Source of the DNA: Armatimonadota bacterium | GTDB taxonomy: Bacteria > Armatimonadota > Fimbriimonadia > Fimbriimonadales > Fimbriimonadaceae | NCBI GenBank assembly: GCA_025360125.1 | Contig: JANYCU010000037.1 | Location: forward strand, 1-64,000 | Length of the DNA: 64,000 nucleotides | Direction of reading: 5' to 3' | The notes under the pieces: model-generated | Told to the model about the DNA's origin: nothing | Seen by the model: only the letters and a program-made list of their open reading frames with translations | Databases searched by the model: none | Translations under genes and position numbers: made by a program | In this document: in pieces, positions 22,993-32,637 of the stretch | How the letters are laid out: each line of letters starts with the position of its first letter | Numbering within the stretch: the first letter of the stretch is position 1

Positions 22993-24021
22993 ATGGGAAC
23001 AACTTTTTGCTTAGCTGCGGTGTTGATGATGGGACAAACGTCATCGGGCGGGAGTCTGACCGAAAAGACGAGCCTCCTTTCGGACGACCTAAGACAAACG
23101 ATGACCTTGTTCGATATTTCGAAGGCAAAGGTCAAAACCGAAGCCGAGGGGAAAACCCTCATTACACAGTTCAATCAAAAACTGAATCAGGTTGCCCAGA
23201 ACGCGGTGAAATATCTGGTTCAGGCCAAAACGGATGAAGCGCGAATTCCGCTTGCCATGATTCGATTTGAGGCACTAGGCAGCTGCATTCAGAAGGATTC
23301 TCCGACCGAAGCAAACGCAGCCGAGATCGCGACCAAATACCGAGAGTCATCTGCGCTTTGCCCCTATATTGAGAAGTTAGTTTTCCTCCAGTACTTGGCG
23401 CGCGAAAAGTATATGCCGTTTGATGCTGAGTTAAAGAAGAGTAAAAATCCAGAAGTTGTTGCGTCGGCGAACCTGGCAATGTACTTTGCACAGACGATCG
23501 AAGACACGATCGACATCAATCGTTTTAAGCAGCTCGCTGAAATTTATCCAAACACCAAGGCGGGAAAACGCTCGGCAAGAGTTTACGATTTTAGAACCAA
23601 AATGAGCCTCGGAGCTCCAATGCCCGACCTTGAAGTGGAGCTACTGAACGGATACAAACTTCAAGTGAATTCGCTCAAAGGGCGAGTTGTGGTTCTTGAT
23701 TTTTACGGATTTTGGAGCTCGCCGTCAGTCGCCGAGATGCCCGAGATCAAGGATTATGTTGCAAAGAATCCGACGAAGCTGGCTTGGATCGGGGTGAATA
23801 CCGATACCTATACCAAGGCCTATATCACCCAGCGGCTCAAGGAAGGGCAAGCCAATTGGCAAAACTCGCTGGCGGGATCAACAGGTGGGCAATTACCGAT
23901 GGACCTTGGCGTGATTGCGTACCCCTCGAAGATCATTATTGATTCATTCGGGATCGTGAAGTACGTTCCGTCTATCCGCGATTGGCGGGCGGTTCTCGAA
24001 GAAGCACTTGGGCGGGCCTAA
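22993..24021 (+). CDS. Secreted TlpA/AhpC-type thioredoxin-fold protein lacking its active cysteines
   Basis: 342 residues. An N-terminal hydrophobic stretch suggests export. Residues 25-200 are a helical region without a known domain. Residues about 205-342 are a redoxin fold: P-M-P-D-L-E-V, then VVVLDFYGFWSSPSVAEMPE, and the cis-proline region I-A-Y-P-S-K-I-I-I-D. In active members the centre reads W-C-x-x-C; here both cysteines are replaced (SSPS). It is likely a binding or scaffolding member rather than a thiol oxidoreductase. The stop overlaps the convergent GH36-like gene by CTAA. Confidence 0.8.
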   Translation: MGTTFCLAAVLMMGQTSSGGSLTEKTSLLSDDLRQTMTLFDISKAKVKTEAEGKTLITQFNQKLNQVAQNAVKYLVQAKTDEARIPLAMIRFEALGSCIQKDSPTEANAAEIATKYRESSALCPYIEKLVFLQYLAREKYMPFDAELKKSKNPEVVASANLAMYFAQTIEDTIDINRFKQLAEIYPNTKAGKRSARVYDFRTKMSLGAPMPDLEVELLNGYKLQVNSLKGRVVVLDFYGFWSSPSVAEMPEIKDYVAKNPTKLAWIGVNTDTYTKAYITQRLKEGQANWQNSLAGSTGGQLPMDLGVIAYPSKIIIDSFGIVKYVPSIRDWRAVLEEALGRA

Positions 24022-26015
24022 GTCTTCGTAAAGGTCAGCTTCCACGCCACCGCGCCGTTTCCGAGCGGTATGGTTACTGTCATTACTTCGCCTTCTAGTT
24101 TGGTCTCGACGCCTTTCGGTTCGGCCTTCGCCAACGCGTAGCCCTTGGGAACCATGACCTTCATGGACCACTTCTGGCCGGGGCCGATCATGTAGGTTCC
24201 GGACAGAACGTTCGCATCCCATTTAATCTTGTCAAGGTCAAAGGCACCTTGCGAGATGTGACGTTCGGTGCCAAGAACCTGAGGATGGTCTTGGATTGGC
24301 CGCAGGGATATGACTTGGCAGTGTCCCGACTTCAAAGCATCGAGCTTGAGCTTAGAGTCGACAATGCCGAGATACTTCTGCTGCCAAAAATCAAAGGCGT
24401 AGTATTTGCCCTTGACCACGCCAACTTGAGCGAGTGAAACGGTCTTGACCGGAGAATCTTTCCAGGCGTTGTGCGAGATAACCGTCCAGCTCTCGCCGAA
24501 TTTTCGGTTGTGCAGAGTGAAAAACTCGGGGTCAGCTGCTTCTTGAGCGACATTGATTGGCCGCGAGAAAACCGTCGGCGAGACCCGCCGCATGATATTG
24601 ATGTGCTCGGGCGAGTAGTCCGCGGGTTTATCGCTAATCATCAAATGCCCACCCGCCAAGGAAGTCATCGATGCCCACGATCTAGCGAGCTCTGGGTCAA
24701 GTCGGAGGCACATATAGTCCGGATCATTGCGCCATACGATGTTGTTGAGGTGGTGAAATTGGGCGATGTATTTGGCCGACCGACGCATCGAATCGAAATC
24801 GGGGCCAACATCTTCTCCGATTCGCGCTCCATTAGGAAGTCCTGCAAGCTCCGGCATGGTCCCCCAACAGGCGAGAACGTACGAACCGCCCGCCTCCCGC
24901 TTAACCCCCGCAACAACGGCTCGAAATGCTTCTTCCATATTCTGCTCGTTGAACTTCCAATAGAACGGATTCTTTCGATAGTTGTCGTACAAGATGTGGC
25001 GTAGCGTATCGATCTTGAAGTAGTTCCAGCCCTGTTTTTTGAGGACTCGAATGGTGGAGAAGTAGGCCTCGTCGGCGCCAGCAGGGTTCAATCCATTCAT
25101 AGCGTAGTTGACCCAAGGGCCACGAAACGGTTTGCTGTCCACGTTCGAAACGTAATCTTTGGCGTTGGTGAGCCCAAGCGGCGTGTAAAGGCCAACCCAA
25201 ATTCCTGGAGTGATGCCTTTCGACTTGATATAGGTAGCCAGGGCCTCCAGGCCCGACGGGAATTTGTTGTTGGGAATCGTCCAGTAGTCGGAATAATGGT
25301 CTCCCGGGTTCATTTTTAGATCACCGGACTGTGGCGTTCTCTGGAAGCCGTCATCCATCTGTACAATGTTGTAACCGTACGGAAGCAGGTTTTTGTTGAT
25401 GAAGTCGCTCGCTTCCTTCATATTGGCTTCGGTCACGTCTTGGTAGTATGCGGCCCATGAGCACCAACCGACGATGGGGGGTTGCCAGACGGCGCGCGCG
25501 GGATCCCAAAGGAAGTATCCGAGATGGTTCTGGACGTAGTCCGTCTTTGCGATAACCGGGGAACTCTTTGTTGGCTCAAGGACGAAGAACGTTCCTTCTC
25601 GCTTGACGAGGCCGTTAATGGTGACGAGGCAGTCAGCGTCGCGAAAATAGACCGAGTCAGCGGCCAAATCGGTGACATCGCCAAAGGTGCTGCCAATGAG
25701 TCCGGGGTTTTTGCTGTTGCACAGCATGGCGTCGGGTGTAAAAGGGATCCGTAATCGCAAACGGCTAACATCACCCTGAAATTGGAACTCTTTGGTAAAC
25801 GCAGTTCGGTGCTGAGGCACATATTCTGAAGTTTTTGGGCCGTGGGGGTAACCAAGATTGACAGGCTTACCTTCCTCATTTGTATTCTTTTCCTTTGGCA
25901 ATGCCTTTGAGCCGTGGATGAATAGTGTAACTCCCTGGCTGAGGTTGACGGAAAGGTCAGCCGAGCCTTGGACGGTGGCTAAGGCTAAGCCGGAAATGAA
26001 GAGGCCGAGTAGCAT
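24018..26015 (-). CDS. Secreted alpha-galactosidase-like enzyme (clan GH-D, GH36 type)
   Basis: 665 residues with a signal peptide (to about residue 17). An N-terminal beta domain (20-180) precedes the catalytic barrel beginning with V-G-W-C-S-W-A-A-Y-Y. Visible catalytic parts are YGYNIVQMDDGFQ, the nucleophile region W-N-Y-F-K-I-D-T-L-R (KxD pattern) and the acid/base region R-I-G-E-D-V-G-P-D-F-D-S. The C-terminus is a beta-sandwich. The nearest described relatives act on alpha-galactosides such as raffinose-type sugars, but the specificity here is inferred only. TAGACT lies 8 bases before the ATG, suggesting a leaderless mRNA. Confidence 0.85.
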   Translation of the reverse strand: MLLGLFISGLALATVQGSADLSVNLSQGVTLFIHGSKALPKEKNTNEEGKPVNLGYPHGPKTSEYVPQHRTAFTKEFQFQGDVSRLRLRIPFTPDAMLCNSKNPGLIGSTFGDVTDLAADSVYFRDADCLVTINGLVKREGTFFVLEPTKSSPVIAKTDYVQNHLGYFLWDPARAVWQPPIVGWCSWAAYYQDVTEANMKEASDFINKNLLPYGYNIVQMDDGFQRTPQSGDLKMNPGDHYSDYWTIPNNKFPSGLEALATYIKSKGITPGIWVGLYTPLGLTNAKDYVSNVDSKPFRGPWVNYAMNGLNPAGADEAYFSTIRVLKKQGWNYFKIDTLRHILYDNYRKNPFYWKFNEQNMEEAFRAVVAGVKREAGGSYVLACWGTMPELAGLPNGARIGEDVGPDFDSMRRSAKYIAQFHHLNNIVWRNDPDYMCLRLDPELARSWASMTSLAGGHLMISDKPADYSPEHINIMRRVSPTVFSRPINVAQEAADPEFFTLHNRKFGESWTVISHNAWKDSPVKTVSLAQVGVVKGKYYAFDFWQQKYLGIVDSKLKLDALKSGHCQVISLRPIQDHPQVLGTERHISQGAFDLDKIKWDANVLSGTYMIGPGQKWSMKVMVPKGYALAKAEPKGVETKLEGEVMTVTIPLGNGAVAWKLTFTKT

Positions 26016-26163: not shown

Positions 26164-27984
26164 TTGAAAATTAAGCCAGCAGGCAAAATAGCAGCACTTC
26201 TCATTATTTTTGGCGCGCTTTACGGAGTTCTACGCGTCACGGGTTTATGGACAAAAATCTTTCCGGGTGCAAAATCGCAGGAAGCATCGGTGCCAATCAC
26301 CGCCACTTTGCCAAAGTTCATCAATAGCGGCAGTTCGAATCCGGTGACCAATGTCAAGATGCCGGAGAAAGGTTTGGCTGGCGGCGGTGACCAAATGCGC
26401 GGCCTCGTTTGGGCCTGGAACGCTCAGATGGGCATGATGTTTGCTAACGGCGGTCCTGAAACGACCTCTGGAAGTTTGATGGCAGAACACCGCGTCAATC
26501 TAAAGCTGACCAGACAAGACGACGCAGCCAAAATGCAGGATTCGCTCGCCGAATTTGCCCAACAGCTCAGTCAAGGCAACGCCCAACCTACTCGTGGTTC
26601 GCACTTTGTCTGCATCATGGGTGACGGAGCCGCGACATTCCTTCAAGGATTGAACGCTACATTGGCGAAAAACGGTCCTGAGTACAAAGCAAAGATTATC
26701 GGCACCTGTGGCTTTTCTCGCGGTGAAGACAAGTTCATGGGGCCCGCCTCATGGCGACAAAATCCCGCTGCTTCGAAAGGCGGCGTTGTCTCTGGCTACC
26801 TTCGAGACGGCGACTGGAATATTGCCATGAAGTGGCTTGGCGACAACAACCTCAAGAATAATCCCGACGAAAAGACTTATGATCCCGACGCTCTGAACTG
26901 GATCGCGGCAAGCGATTACATCGATGCCGCCGAAAAGTACATCACAGGCTATACCGAAGAGCGAGATGTCGTTAAGAACGGCGTTCGAACGGGTGAAAAG
27001 AAGAAGATTCATGTTGACGGAGTTGTTACGTGGACCCCCGGTGATGTCTCAATTGCGGCCAAAAAGGGCGGCGTAGTCAGCATCGTCTCAACTCAGGAAT
27101 ATTCGGCCCAGATGCCCTGCGTCATCATCGCGATTGACCAATGGTGTAAGAACAACAAAGATAAGGTCGAGGCATTTTTGAGTGCAATCTTTGACGGTAG
27201 TGATTCGGTTCGAGGCAACCAAGACGCCCTGCGAAAAGGCGCCGAAGTAAGCCAAGAGGTTTACCAAGAGAAGAACGCCAATGCCAGCTATTGGCAACGG
27301 TATTTCAAGGGCTCTGACGAGAAAGACGCAACTGGTGTAACCATTCACCTCGGTGGTTCGTCCGTCAACAACCTTGCCGACAACATGGTGTTGTTCGGCA
27401 AGGTAACTGGCTCGGCTAACGTATACAAGGCGGTTTACGAGACCTTCGGAAACATCGTTGTGCAGCAGTATCCGAGCTTAGTCAAGGAATATCCACCGTA
27501 CGACGATATCGTCGATACGAGCTATATCGAAGACATCGCCGGGAAAGCTAATTTCGACCGATCCAAGCCGAATGTTGAAATTCCCACCCTGGGTAATCCT
27601 GGGAAAACCAAGAACAAGCCCACGGGCCTTGTTGGTCAAAAAGTCTACGACATCAAGTTCGAGACTGGGCGTGCCACCTTTACCCAAAGTGCGAATGCGG
27701 GCCTAAAGCGGTTGATGACGGACACGGTCATTGCGGGTAACACCACAATCGAAGTGAACGGCCATACCGATAACGTTGGCAACGCCGATGCCAATTTGAA
27801 ACTATCCGAAGCAAGAGCCTTCGCAGTGAAACGTTGGCTAGAGTCGAACTATCCACAACAGTTCCCCGAAGGGCGAATTACGGTGAAATCTCATGGTCAG
27901 ACCGAACCAATCGCCGAGAACTCGAGCGATTCGGGACGAGCTAAGAATCGTCGCGTCGTCATCAAAATCAGGTCTTCTTCCTAG
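26164..27984 (+). CDS. Inner-membrane-anchored substrate-binding protein fused to an OmpA peptidoglycan-binding domain
   Basis: 606 residues from a TTG start with a GAGGAAA site. Residues 9-27 form one membrane anchor. Residues about 60-470 look like an ABC importer binding protein of the NMT1/sulfonate type: QMRGLVWAWNAQM, then a VVSGYLRDGDWNIAMKWLGD segment, DGVVTWTPGDVSIAAKKGG and AFLSAIFDG. Residues about 490-606 are a complete OmpA-like domain: V-N-G-H-T-D-N-V-G, LKLSEARAFAVKRWL and G-R-A-K-N-R-R-V-V-I, with the Asp and Arg that bind diaminopimelate. The protein would be tethered both to the membrane and to the wall. It is the first gene of a five-gene cassette with its permease and ATPase. 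Confidence 0.85.
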   Translation: MKIKPAGKIAALLIIFGALYGVLRVTGLWTKIFPGAKSQEASVPITATLPKFINSGSSNPVTNVKMPEKGLAGGGDQMRGLVWAWNAQMGMMFANGGPETTSGSLMAEHRVNLKLTRQDDAAKMQDSLAEFAQQLSQGNAQPTRGSHFVCIMGDGAATFLQGLNATLAKNGPEYKAKIIGTCGFSRGEDKFMGPASWRQNPAASKGGVVSGYLRDGDWNIAMKWLGDNNLKNNPDEKTYDPDALNWIAASDYIDAAEKYITGYTEERDVVKNGVRTGEKKKIHVDGVVTWTPGDVSIAAKKGGVVSIVSTQEYSAQMPCVIIAIDQWCKNNKDKVEAFLSAIFDGSDSVRGNQDALRKGAEVSQEVYQEKNANASYWQRYFKGSDEKDATGVTIHLGGSSVNNLADNMVLFGKVTGSANVYKAVYETFGNIVVQQYPSLVKEYPPYDDIVDTSYIEDIAGKANFDRSKPNVEIPTLGNPGKTKNKPTGLVGQKVYDIKFETGRATFTQSANAGLKRLMTDTVIAGNTTIEVNGHTDNVGNADANLKLSEARAFAVKRWLESNYPQQFPEGRITVKSHGQTEPIAENSSDSGRAKNRRVVIKIRSSS

Positions 27985-27992
27985 TCACAAAA

Positions 27993-28835
27993 ATGGCAAC
28001 TAAACCAGAACCCGGAGTCAATAAGGCTCCGGGTCCAAACCAAAAGAAATTCAATTTCGCGGATATTTTTCTGCCGAATCGGGTCGTGTCGCAAAGCACG
28101 ATGCTCGGAATATCCGTGCTTTGGATTTTAAGCATCCTACTCATATGGTCCGCTAATCCGGTCAAAACGATTCCAAAGCCAGCCGAGGTCTTCCACGAGT
28201 TTGGAAACCTTTGGGGGACTATGGGTCTTGGGCAGGAATTGCTCACAAGTCTTAGCTTGAATTTTCGAGCCCTCGTCGCCTCATCACTGATCTGTCTAGG
28301 GCTTTCCTATTTAACGGTGATTCCCTTTTTTCGCCCTCTGGTCATCGCATTATCGAAAGGGCGATTCTTGAGCTTGGTCGGCTTTTCGTTCGTGTTTTCG
28401 ATCCTCATCGGAGGCGGAGAGACCATGAAAATGATCTTGCTCGTGATTGGCATGACCGTGTTTTTGCTGACTTCGATGGCAACGGTTGTGGCGGAAATCC
28501 CGAAGGCGGATTTCGATCACGCTCGAACCCTGCGAATGTCTGAGTGGAAAGTTGTTTGGGAAGTCGTGGTTCTTGGTACCTTGGACCAAATGTTTGAGGT
28601 CATTCGTCAAAATGCAGCCATTGGCTGGATGATGCTAACGATGGTTGAAGGAATCGTTCGGTCTGGCGGTGGAGTCGGGGTGTTGCTTCTTGATGAACAT
28701 AAGCACATGGAAATGGGTGCAGTATTTGCCATCCAAATTATCATCCTTATCGTCGGACTGACCCAAGACTATGTGATCGGAGCCCTTCGCCGGCTTGTTT
28801 GCCCTTACGCATCATTAACTCTGGAGCGAAGATGA
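27993..28835 (+). CDS. ABC transporter permease (SsuC/TauC-like)
   Basis: 280 residues, about six spans. A long cytoplasmic N-terminus (30 residues, Pro/Lys-rich) is followed by a first span and the BPD_transp_1 core. The coupling region that meets the ATPase is seen as AEIPKADFDHARTLRMSEWK, corresponding to the EAA loop of importers. It lies 8 bases after the SBP-OmpA gene and its stop overlaps the ATPase start (ATGA). The substrate is unknown; sulfonate/nitrate/taurine-type transporters share the permease fold. Confidence 0.85.
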   Translation: MATKPEPGVNKAPGPNQKKFNFADIFLPNRVVSQSTMLGISVLWILSILLIWSANPVKTIPKPAEVFHEFGNLWGTMGLGQELLTSLSLNFRALVASSLICLGLSYLTVIPFFRPLVIALSKGRFLSLVGFSFVFSILIGGGETMKMILLVIGMTVFLLTSMATVVAEIPKADFDHARTLRMSEWKVVWEVVVLGTLDQMFEVIRQNAAIGWMMLTMVEGIVRSGGGVGVLLLDEHKHMEMGAVFAIQIIILIVGLTQDYVIGALRRLVCPYASLTLERR

Positions 28836-29656
28836 ACTACCAATACGAAGTCAAAGAAACGATTCTCAAAATCGAAAATGTGAACCTCACGTTGGGCGGA
28901 AAGTTAATCCTCAAGGACGTCAACGGCGAGGTCAAAAATATTCGACGAGAGGAAGTTCAGCAAGGTCAGGTTATCGGTCTGCTTGGTCCTTCGGGAATGG
29001 GAAAGACACAACTGTTTCGAATTCTATCTGGATTGAACATGCCCGACACGGGCACGGTCTTTGTCACCGAGCAAATGACTCCGGTCAAAGCAGGAATGGT
29101 GGGAGTTGTCGCGCAAAACTACCCGCTGTTTAACCATCGCACGATCATTTCCAATTTGATTGTCGCGGGTAAGCAAGCCGGGATGGATAATTCCATAGCC
29201 GAGACCAGAGGAAAAGAGCTGCTTCACCGATTTGGCCTTGACGGACATGAAGATCAATATCCGGTTCAACTTTCGGGTGGCCAACGCCAGCGAGCGGCAA
29301 TTGCCCAGCAGTTTATGTGCAGTGAGCACTTCTTGCTCATGGACGAACCCTTCTCGGGATTGGACCCAATCGCTCTTGGTGAGATGTGCAGCTTCATCTG
29401 CGAGATGGCCCAAACCGACGAACTGAAAACGTTTGTAGTTGTCACTCACGACATCGATTCCGCAGTTTCGGTTTGCGATAGCCTGTGGCTTTTGGGCCGA
29501 GATCGAGACGAACATGGCGATCCGATCCCCGGAGCAAAAATTCAACACGTGATCGATTTAGCCGCCCGCGGACTCGCGTGGCGCGAAAATATCCGAGAAA
29601 TCCCGTCGTTTGCTGTCACTGTCAACGAGGTAAGACAGCTTTTTGCGACGCTTTAA
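28832..29656 (+). CDS. ABC transporter ATPase (SsuB/TauB-like)
   Basis: 274 residues. The start is the ATG at 28832 overlapping the permease stop. Walker A is GPSGMGKTQ (Gln follows the Thr), the Q-loop VVAQNYPLF, signature Q-L-S-G-G-Q-R-Q-R, Walker B F-L-L-M-D-E-P-F-S-G, and H-loop V-V-T-H-D-I-D. A 50-residue C-terminal extension follows the H-loop region. It energises the permease at 27993-28835. Confidence 0.88.
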   Translation: MNYQYEVKETILKIENVNLTLGGKLILKDVNGEVKNIRREEVQQGQVIGLLGPSGMGKTQLFRILSGLNMPDTGTVFVTEQMTPVKAGMVGVVAQNYPLFNHRTIISNLIVAGKQAGMDNSIAETRGKELLHRFGLDGHEDQYPVQLSGGQRQRAAIAQQFMCSEHFLLMDEPFSGLDPIALGEMCSFICEMAQTDELKTFVVVTHDIDSAVSVCDSLWLLGRDRDEHGDPIPGAKIQHVIDLAARGLAWRENIREIPSFAVTVNEVRQLFATL

Positions 29657-29676
29657 GGGAATAATTCATTCAATAG

Positions 29677-30654
29677 GTGAATATCGATCCATCCCAAGGA
29701 AATTACCGGAGCTCTCGGCATCGCTATAAATCGGCGTTAGCGGAGAGCTTTAATGTCGTTGGCATGGCAGCTGCTGCGGCCGTTGCTCTTGCTACTGGCA
29801 CCTTTATCCCTATTATCCTCGGGGTCGCGGCTGAGGCGGTTTATATGCTGTTCGTCCCCGATTCTAAATGGTACGAGGTGCGGCTGAAATCGAAATTTGA
29901 CGCCGAGGTTCAGGCTCGTCTGCAAAAGCTTCGCGACCAAGTGTTTCCCCAAATCCACAGTTCTGTAAAGGAGCAATTTTCTCGGCTCCAATCGGCCCGT
30001 GATCAGATCGGTCAGCAGTCTCGGTCAGAGGAGACATGGTTCCGAGAGGCTTTACGGAAGCTCGACTTTTTGATGGAGAAGTATTTGCAGTTCGCGCTCA
30101 AAGAGTCTCAGTTCATCAAGTACCTCACCAGCCTCATCGACGAGGCTTACGACAACCTCAATCAGGATGAGCGAAGAAAGCTTGATACGTTGGTGAGCCG
30201 GTCATCCTCGAAGATTAAACCACCTCGGGATATTGACTATTCGAACGGTCAAACTGCCGTTTCTCAGGGTCCGGCTCCTTCAGAAGATTGGAATAACACG
30301 ATTGCCGATGTTTTGTTTAGCCAATACGGCCGCGAAATTGAAGATTTGAAATCTCGATCAGCGAGTGAGCAAGTGTTCGCCACCAAATCGATTCTGGATA
30401 AGCGAGTTGAGATTCTCACCAAGCGACAAGAGTTCGTTGAAAGAATTGTCCAGATCTTGAATAACCTTCGCCACCAGATGCAGTTGATGACCGACACGTT
30501 TGGATTGATCAACGACGAGATACGGGCCCGATCGCCGGAGCAAGTCCTTGCCGATATCGACGAAGTCGTTACCACCACCAATTCGCTCACCGAAGCCCTC
30601 GAAGCAGTTACTCCGTTTGAGCAACTTGTCTCGACGCCAACCTATAAGGAATAA
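29677..30654 (+). CDS. Unrecognised membrane protein with long coiled-coil region
   Basis: 325 residues from a GTG start. Residues 25-60 are strongly hydrophobic (two close spans or a hairpin, rich in Ala/Gly/Ile). Residues 65-325 are mostly helical with charged heptads, including V-Q-A-R-L-Q-K-L-R-D-Q-V, L-R-K-L-D-F-L-M-E-K-Y and VEILTKRQEFVERIVQILNN. The protein probably sits in the inner membrane with a rod-like cytoplasmic part. No family is recognised. It is 20 bases after the ATPase and 3 bases before the next cassette gene, so it belongs to the same operon and may bridge the transporter to other machinery. Confidence 0.65.
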   Translation: MNIDPSQGNYRSSRHRYKSALAESFNVVGMAAAAAVALATGTFIPIILGVAAEAVYMLFVPDSKWYEVRLKSKFDAEVQARLQKLRDQVFPQIHSSVKEQFSRLQSARDQIGQQSRSEETWFREALRKLDFLMEKYLQFALKESQFIKYLTSLIDEAYDNLNQDERRKLDTLVSRSSSKIKPPRDIDYSNGQTAVSQGPAPSEDWNNTIADVLFSQYGREIEDLKSRSASEQVFATKSILDKRVEILTKRQEFVERIVQILNNLRHQMQLMTDTFGLINDEIRARSPEQVLADIDEVVTTTNSLTEALEAVTPFEQLVSTPTYKE

Positions 30655-30657
30655 ACC

Positions 30658-31374
30658 ATGAGTATCAAAAACGTATTCAAGAAAGCAGCCGAAATGTTTG
30701 TGGAGCTGCCCGAAGACCAAATGGACTATTCGACCTTTAAGTCGACAATGGACCCAGGTCCGGTTTCTACACCACATCTTGCTGCGCCAACGCCAACGCC
30801 AGCACCTGCCCCCGTTGCCGTTCAAACTTTATCGGTGAAGCAGATCGTCGAGAATACAGAAGGACCAAATTTGGACGAGATATCGCTGACCGAAGAGCAA
30901 GCCCGCGAAGGCTTGGCTCCGGGCGGAATTCCGAATTTCGAAAAGGTTTACTCCAATGCGAGCCTGCCGAAATCGTCCTTTGGTGCCGAGCAAGCGCTCG
31001 ATGTCATGGCCTCGCTCCCGGCTGACTTGCCACTCAACGTCAAGAGGTCAACAGTTCAAGCCACCCTGACGGCCATGGGTAAGGCGATGGGAGTTGATAC
31101 CGAGTCAGTGGTTGCCGATGCTTCTCGAAAGATGGCGGCATTAAGCGCGTTCGAAGACTCGCTTAATCTGCAAAGCAAGCGGTTTATTGCCACGATGACG
31201 GCCGAGATCGACGCCCATCAGGCGAAGATCGCCGAGCTCAATGCGAAAATGGATGAATCAAAGAAGTCGCTAGAGACTGCGTTGGCAAAGTGCCACGAAG
31301 AGAACGAGAAATTGGACGATGTACTTGAGTTCTTTACGCTTGACATCGGTGCCAGCAAAAACGCTCCGCAGTAG
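30658..31374 (+). CDS. Unrecognised Pro/Ala-linker and coiled-coil protein
   Basis: 238 residues, no signal or span. Residues 1-35 are amphipathic, residues 36-60 are a Pro/Ala/Thr-rich linker (APTPTPAPAPVAV), and residues 100-150 form a helical domain with SLPADLPLNVKRSTVQATL. Residues 170-225 form a coiled coil (A-K-I-A-E-L-N-A-K-M-D-E). The ending is short and acidic. I do not recognise the family. It is the last gene of the SBP-OmpA/ABC cassette and is likely cytoplasmic, perhaps partnering the coiled-coil membrane protein upstream. Confidence 0.65.
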   Translation: MSIKNVFKKAAEMFVELPEDQMDYSTFKSTMDPGPVSTPHLAAPTPTPAPAPVAVQTLSVKQIVENTEGPNLDEISLTEEQAREGLAPGGIPNFEKVYSNASLPKSSFGAEQALDVMASLPADLPLNVKRSTVQATLTAMGKAMGVDTESVVADASRKMAALSAFEDSLNLQSKRFIATMTAEIDAHQAKIAELNAKMDESKKSLETALAKCHEENEKLDDVLEFFTLDIGASKNAPQ

Positions 31375-31401: not shown

Positions 31402-32637
31402 ATGACTATCAAACGTCATCGGTATCTTTTTGTCCTTGCCCTGCTGGGCACCGGATGTCAGTCTGGTTCTGAAAATTCGCAATCAAACCAAAGTGCAGAG
31501 CCCGTATCAATCGACTCAACCTATCGGAATTTGCCCAAGCAGTCGATTGAGCCAATCAATGAATTTGCGGTGCAAACCCTTAGAGATATGGCAGGAACGA
31601 ATGACACCGCCAATGCAATGATTTCACCATGGAGCGCGGAGGAATGTTTTGGAATGATTCGCTTGGGCGCCAAGGGCCAGACCGATGAGCAACTAAAGAG
31701 TTTTCTGCATCAAAACGTCTCGCCAGAAGAGCAGGCAAAAGTGATGTCAAGACTTCGCGTTGGCATTGCAAATCTTGTCTCAGCGAACATTATTCGTCAG
31801 GCGAACGGAATATGGGTTAACAAGAATTTTTCGATATTGCCGAAATTCGTATCCGGAACTCGAGACTTTTACAAGGCTGAGAGCAAACAAACCGATTTCC
31901 CCGAGCCCGGACTATCGGAAATCAACTCATTTGTATCGAAAGAAACCAACCAACTCATCCCCAAGCTATTCGATAGTCTCAATGCTGCCACGATGCTCGT
32001 ACTCGTCAACGCAATTTCCTTTAAGGATCGTTGGGATACGCCGTTTGAGAAGTCGATGACAAAGGATATGATTTTTCGGGTTGATTCCTCAAATTCACCT
32101 TCTGTCGCCACGATGAGCCGAACCGGGAAATTCTCGTATGGTGAGAACGAGAAGTGTCAGTGGCTTAACCTTCCGTACCGAACGGGATTGAGGATGCTTG
32201 TGCTCCTTCCAACGCAAGGAACATCTTTGCAGGCTGCCATCGAACAGAAAGGACTGCTGGAAGAGATTGATTCTCATTTCCGTCAACGGGAAGGAACGGT
32301 TTGGATTCCGAAATGGAAATCCAATTTCGATTGGAACATTAAAACTTGGATGAACCAACATGGACTATCGAAACCTTATGATGGATCAGCTGATTTTAGT
32401 GGAATATCGTCAGGCAGCTTATCTTTGTCTCAGGCGATTCAGAAGACGTATATCCAAGTCGATGAAGTAGGAACGACTGCTGCAGCCGCCACTGGTGAAT
32501 TCACTGCTGCCGCAAATCATGAGTCAACACAGGAGAAACCGTTTGAATTTAAGGCGGATCACCCTTTTGCATATTTTATTTGGGCTCCAGGCGGGGTCGT
32601 ATACTTTGCCGGACTAGTTAGGGATCCCACCAAGTGA
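31402..32637 (+). CDS. Serpin (serine protease inhibitor), exported
   Basis: 411 residues. A signal peptide ends in G-T-G-C, which may be a lipoprotein site although the residue at -3 is atypical. The serpin fold is complete: N-terminal N-A-M-I-S-P-W-S, LVLVNAISFKDRWDTPF, and the reactive loop hinge DEVGTTAAAATGEF preceding KADHPFAYFIW. The hinge E-x-G-T-x-A-A-A-x-T is that of inhibitory serpins. Counting from the hinge Glu as P17, P1 would be an Ala of T-A-A-A-N, which suggests an elastase-like target (inference). TAAGAT lies 5 bases before the ATG. Confidence 0.9.
   Translation: MTIKRHRYLFVLALLGTGCQSGSENSQSNQSAEPVSIDSTYRNLPKQSIEPINEFAVQTLRDMAGTNDTANAMISPWSAEECFGMIRLGAKGQTDEQLKSFLHQNVSPEEQAKVMSRLRVGIANLVSANIIRQANGIWVNKNFSILPKFVSGTRDFYKAESKQTDFPEPGLSEINSFVSKETNQLIPKLFDSLNAATMLVLVNAISFKDRWDTPFEKSMTKDMIFRVDSSNSPSVATMSRTGKFSYGENEKCQWLNLPYRTGLRMLVLLPTQGTSLQAAIEQKGLLEEIDSHFRQREGTVWIPKWKSNFDWNIKTWMNQHGLSKPYDGSADFSGISSGSLSLSQAIQKTYIQVDEVGTTAAAATGEFTAAANHESTQEKPFEFKADHPFAYFIWAPGGVVYFAGLVRDPTK

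Follow-up and report, generated by a model that had tools for sequence, protein, structure and literature searches.

A cassette of five genes, in which a substrate-binding protein (SBP) fused to an OmpA domain is followed by an ABC permease, an ABC ATPase and two proteins of families without names (HYD and CC), is real and widespread in the Armatimonadota, and its arrangement is far beyond chance, because many families of the phylum show the genes in this order. HYD, and CC beside it, persisted through replacements of SBP, permease and ATPase. The reading that we prefer, at a probability of about 0.5, is an importer of the Nrt/Cmp/Tau class with a receptor that would bridge the inner membrane and the wall, served by a portable sub-membrane HYD-CC module. 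The window (the whole stretch of 64,000 nucleotides that was analyzed) carries the cassette at positions 26164-31374 of the + strand, with all five open reading frames present:

26164-27984, + strand: SBP-OmpA fusion, 606 aa, TTG start; transmembrane segment (TM) 9-27, divergent NMT1-like SBP part, OmpA domain 499-596 with Asp536 and Arg551
27993-28835, + strand: ABC permease, 280 aa, divergent, probably of the Nrt/Cmp/Tau class
28832-29656, + strand: ABC ATPase, 274 aa
29677-30654, + strand: HYD, 325 aa, GTG start, family without a name
30658-31374, + strand: CC, 238 aa, family without a name

The genes abut one another with intergenic gaps of 8, -4 (ATGA), 20 and 3 bases, and the first-pass annotation, which had described a five-gene cassette with this spacing, is borne out base for base. 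The start of the ATPase was placed at TTG 28799 in the mechanical list of open reading frames; homologues agree with the ATG at 28832. A serpin gene (31402-32637; PF00079, E=1.5e-87) with a start that looks lipobox-like by eye follows the cassette on the same strand after a gap of 27 bases; elsewhere a serpin gene was seen downstream of the cassette only at two loci (L004 and L005). The region directly upstream (24018-26015, minus strand) encodes a divergent melibiase-like glycoside hydrolase (PF02065, E=2e-5, below cut-off).

Among 291 Armatimonadota genomes, HYD was found in 46 and CC in 43. A full SBP-OmpA fusion was present in 39 genomes, all of which (39/39) also had HYD. HYD was encoded on the same strand at a distance of no more than 5 kb at 35 of the 40 fusion loci, and at 32 of the 40 this was true of CC as well. 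The five exceptions were one genome with fusion and HYD divergent within 1.3 kb (G210), two with fusion and HYD farther apart on one contig (G003 and G106) and two with fusion and HYD on separate contigs (G016 and G075). The hypergeometric P for co-occurrence of fusion and HYD was 1e-41, which is to be taken as a rough scale since it ignores the kinship of the genomes. The order SBP-permease-ATPase-HYD-CC was kept in the majority of the 28 genome_contigs loci, and one locus (L058) showed the permuted order HYD-CC-SBP-permease-ATPase. The first-pass annotation had placed the last two genes in one cassette with the transporter, and the genome search found both of them together with it in dozens of genomes.

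The OmpA domain of the fusion was assigned to PF00691 (E=2.7e-17, 63.4 bits vs a cut-off of 27.2), and the N-terminal TM was located by a TM scan. The OmpA part aligns with the solved peptidoglycan-binding domains of OprF, omp38 and MotB, and its Asp536 and Arg551, which lie 15 residues from each other, do not vary among 20 fusions that represent both transporter subtypes (see below). We take these residues to be the diaminopimelate-binding Asp/Arg pair, with the spacing of 15 that Asp271 and Arg286 have in A. baumannii OmpA. The alignment and the retained pair agree with the proposal that the OmpA part is an intact, predicted peptidoglycan-binding domain. Given an N-terminal TM together with an OmpA domain, the natural reading is that the receptor would be fastened to the inner membrane at one end and to the wall at the other, and as a prediction from sequence the wall tethering is well supported. 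The SBP-OmpA architecture has a precedent in plasmid operons of Vibrio, where the NCBI name is 'substrate-binding/OmpA family protein'. A plasmid search with the SBP part of the window alone gave no match, and several plasmid matches to OmpA were ordinary OmpA proteins, e.g., from type VI secretion or conjugation regions.

Regarding the transporter class, two subtypes were distinguished, a (the type in the window) and b, both of which keep OmpA. The SBP part in the window reaches NMT1 weakly (E=0.029, below the Pfam cut-off), so that the ligand class is uncertain; the SBP of subtype b, also fused to OmpA, is over the NMT1 cut-off and matched a taurine-binding protein among PDB sequences. The window permease matched SaoP (1.5e-9) and TauC (2e-8) in NCBIfam, and its nearest PDB sequences were CmpB (4.9e-6) and then a nitrate permease (0.011); against BPD_transp_1 it yielded 0.0051, which is below cut-off, and a homologue (L040) was over it. 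The weak NMT1 match in the window, the stronger one in subtype b and a permease nearest to CmpB and TauC together indicate that the class is probably nitrate/bicarbonate/sulfonate-like. The ATPase (PF00005, 5e-25) has all catalytic motifs, i.e., Walker A, Q-loop, LSGGQ, Walker B, D-loop and H-loop.

Neither HYD nor CC belongs to a Pfam or NCBIfam family, and a member-by-member Pfam search of both yielded coiled-coil noise only. HYD is composed of a hydrophobic hairpin at residues 20-60 and a subsequent helical domain (model pLDDT 77); by positive-inside reasoning both ends of the hairpin would be inside and the helical domain would be cytoplasmic. CC is devoid of a TM and contains an N-terminal amphipathic segment, a Pro/Ala linker, a helical domain and a conserved C-terminal LDDVLEFF.LD motif; its model (mean pLDDT 79) has one long helix at 148-229 (about 80 residues). 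The hairpin, the linker and the long helix match the original description of a hydrophobic/coiled-coil protein and a coiled-coil protein with a Pro/Ala linker. The hydrophobic moment of the start of the window CC was 0.58, with none of 400 shuffles as high, and the amphipathicity is modest across the family (median p 0.08). Fold searches of the PDB with the HYD and CC models (Foldseek, VIA-align) returned generic helical matches only, as is usual for helical proteins; the best scores for HYD and CC, respectively, were E values of 0.12 and 0.65 and VIA Z values of 9.6 and 6.1. HYD had no match among plasmids and phages, and in a scan of genome_contigs with short near-exact patterns, which leaves room for distant relatives elsewhere, it was restricted to Armatimonadota.

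The permeases of subtypes a and b are 18-21% identical. In a maximum-likelihood phylogeny of HYD, at least four switches between a and b transporters are required by well-supported branches; for instance, a b locus (L029) and an a locus (L025) are sisters (100/96). HYD and CC, constant through these changes, are therefore not tied to one substrate, and the replacement of the transporter under HYD with CC, with both kinds tethered by OmpA, argues that the pair serves the tethered architecture and not the substrate. The retention of the pair through several pump exchanges suggests that it is a module dedicated to sensing or scaffolding in connection with the wall, and the repeated exchange constitutes a natural experiment on its role.

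Relatives of both proteins were also found outside the standard cassette. Four more distant loci (L122-L125) have a b-like SBP-OmpA fusion, a relative of HYD (hhalign 97%, E=7e-11) and, where callable, transporter genes, with no match to CC. At two further loci (L127, 8491-11246; L128, 345-3190) HYD adjoins a PspA/IM30-like protein, which at L128 is assigned to PF04012 with E=1.6e-16; at L128 HYD also adjoins an anchored SBP-like protein, and no transporter gene was detected nearby. The row at L127 also contains a TonB-C protein. A third copy of HYD in one genome (G021, L130) comes after an anchored SBP_bac_11 protein. Members of the CC family also exist independently of the cassette, as relatives that stand alone, without HYD or transporter (L142, L143, L144, L147, L148 and L150), some of them C-terminally extended.

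In the preferred reading, an importer of the nitrate/bicarbonate/taurine class, driven by ATP, would have its binding protein fixed to the membrane by the TM and to peptidoglycan by OmpA, and the receptor, staying in place between membrane and wall, would feed the ABC transporter. HYD, with its two-TM hairpin and helical domain, and the helical, peripheral CC would be a dedicated pair on the cytoplasmic side, a portable module under the membrane that may bind the receptor-transporter complex and may report, gate or stabilize it according to receptor occupancy or wall state. Gene content, its conservation, the anchoring residues, the intact ATPase motifs and the repeated switch of transporter type are observed in this scheme, and we infer the topology, the direct contacts, the class of ligand and a part for HYD-CC in sensing or scaffolding. 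The first-pass annotation had favored a wall-coupled sensor-transporter over simple uptake; the part of this that gains support is a module beyond uptake, given that HYD-CC was kept while the transporter type changed and that HYD also accompanies an anchored SBP and PspA where no transporter gene lies close by. Mechanical or ligand signaling on the cytoplasmic side is pure conjecture. We consider it tentative, and on balance rather unlikely, that the whole is an envelope-spanning sensor-transporter, whose doubly fixed receptor would report wall spacing or ligand state via the ABC transporter to HYD-CC, the pair filling a TelA-type place in Armatimonadota.

The constancy of HYD-CC with two transporter types would also be expected of a general assembly factor. 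One alternative, at perhaps one chance in three or slightly less, is a plain importer whose receptor is fixed, in which HYD and CC would help with assembly or stability so that the doubly tethered receptor is placed correctly, and in which no signaling takes place. It is in line with the tight adjacency and order of the genes and with the intact ATPase; it accounts poorly for the locus where HYD adjoins PspA and an anchored SBP-like protein and no transporter gene was detected, and for the CC relatives in other contexts. The adjacency to PspA speaks for a system devoted mainly to envelope stress, in which the anchored SBP and ABC proteins would be the sensor and HYD-CC a stress module similar to TelA/XpaC or PspA, transport being secondary or lost. 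Plasmid operons of Vibrio, Variovorax and Sphaerotilus in which TelA accompanies anchored SBP proteins, SBP-VWA or SBP-OmpA fusions point the same way, as does TelA (PF05816) being over the cut-off in none of the 291 Armatimonadota genomes. In Listeria, loss of TelA raises the sensitivity to nisin and tellurite, and the XpaC-TelA pair is linked to both tolerances (PMC12791056); TelA was proposed to form sub-membrane structures (PMC7824862). We nevertheless regard a primary stress function as doubtful, because neither HYD nor CC showed detectable homology to TelA or PspA when profiles were compared (for the PspA/IM30 profile vs HYD or CC, hhalign 0.1%, with PF04012 in neither), the source genome has a separate true PspA, and the ATPase keeps all its catalytic motifs. 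Chance neighbors, or a lineage-specific operon without a functional tie, are highly improbable: the serpin gene, downstream in only three related genomes, illustrates that neighbors can be accidental, but the order conserved across many families, the permuted arrangement of the same five genes and the HYD tree all contradict such an origin.

Two protein families without names are now defined, with strong testable partners, and an importer receptor with a predicted wall anchor emerges as a design that this diderm phylum, which has been little studied, has conserved. The parallel to TelA operons may help to explain widespread, poorly understood envelope-tolerance genes. The plasmid rows used for comparison are:

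L176, 7456-18341 (also L177 and L178): Vibrio plasmid operon
L179, 5755-9804, and L180, 6463-10830: betaproteobacterial plasmid TelA rows

The operon of the Vibrio plasmids (pSEA2, pIFO15640 and pAM7) combines SBP-OmpA fusions, ABC genes and TelA in the row ABC ATPase, NMT1-like SBP-OmpA fusion, VWA, second fusion (NCBI name 'phosphate ABC transporter substrate-binding/OmpA family protein'), two-TM coiled-coil protein, TelA, urea-type SBP and permease. It gives the impression of a receptor system tied to TelA and so far undescribed. It resembles the cassette in that a single row encodes SBP-OmpA fusions, the ATPase and permease of an ABC transporter, a coiled-coil protein with two TMs and a helical protein of the cytoplasm, whereas TelA and VWA are found in the Vibrio operon only. 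HYD and the Vibrio two-TM protein share the two-TM layout, and their hhalign probability was 0.3%, with a Vibrio profile from 3 sequences. On the Variovorax and Sphaerotilus plasmids TelA comes after an SBP-like protein and before an SBP-VWA protein (SBP parts partly read by eye); the row at L180 is near Wadjet genes. Since no homology of HYD or CC to TelA, PspA or the Vibrio two-TM protein was detectable with these profiles, the likeness appears to be one of arrangement only, with HYD and CC in a comparable position in the row of genes. Nothing direct on a TelA/SBP-OmpA system was found in the literature. In the XpaC-TelA pair (Listeria lmo1966-lmo1967) a small membrane protein is joined by a helical protein of the cytoplasm. 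Like this pair and the Ter systems, HYD-CC would combine a membrane protein with a helical cytoplasmic protein, again a likeness of arrangement only; XpaC-TelA is linked to envelope tolerance. TelA itself was not found in the source genome or, as stated above, over cut-off in the genome set.

Compared with the MotB/PomB and Pal-type OmpA anchors, the fusion has an N-terminal TM and a C-terminal OmpA domain, as in MotB, but a periplasmic SBP sits between the two. A partner of the MotA/ExbB/TolQ type, as in the MotAB, ExbBD and TolQR stators, was not detected among the five cassette proteins with Pfam and NCBIfam. The systems NrtABCD, CmpABCD and TauABC-SsuABC, with an NMT1-type SBP, a BPD_transp_1 permease and an ABC ATPase, are resembled by the cassette in its permease, which is near CmpB, nitrate permeases and TauC/SaoP, and in the SBP of subtype b, which is an NMT1 protein over the cut-off, whereas SBP and permease of subtype a in the window are below the Pfam cut-offs. 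The cassette differs from these importers in that its SBP is fused to OmpA and carries a membrane anchor, and in that HYD and CC are added.
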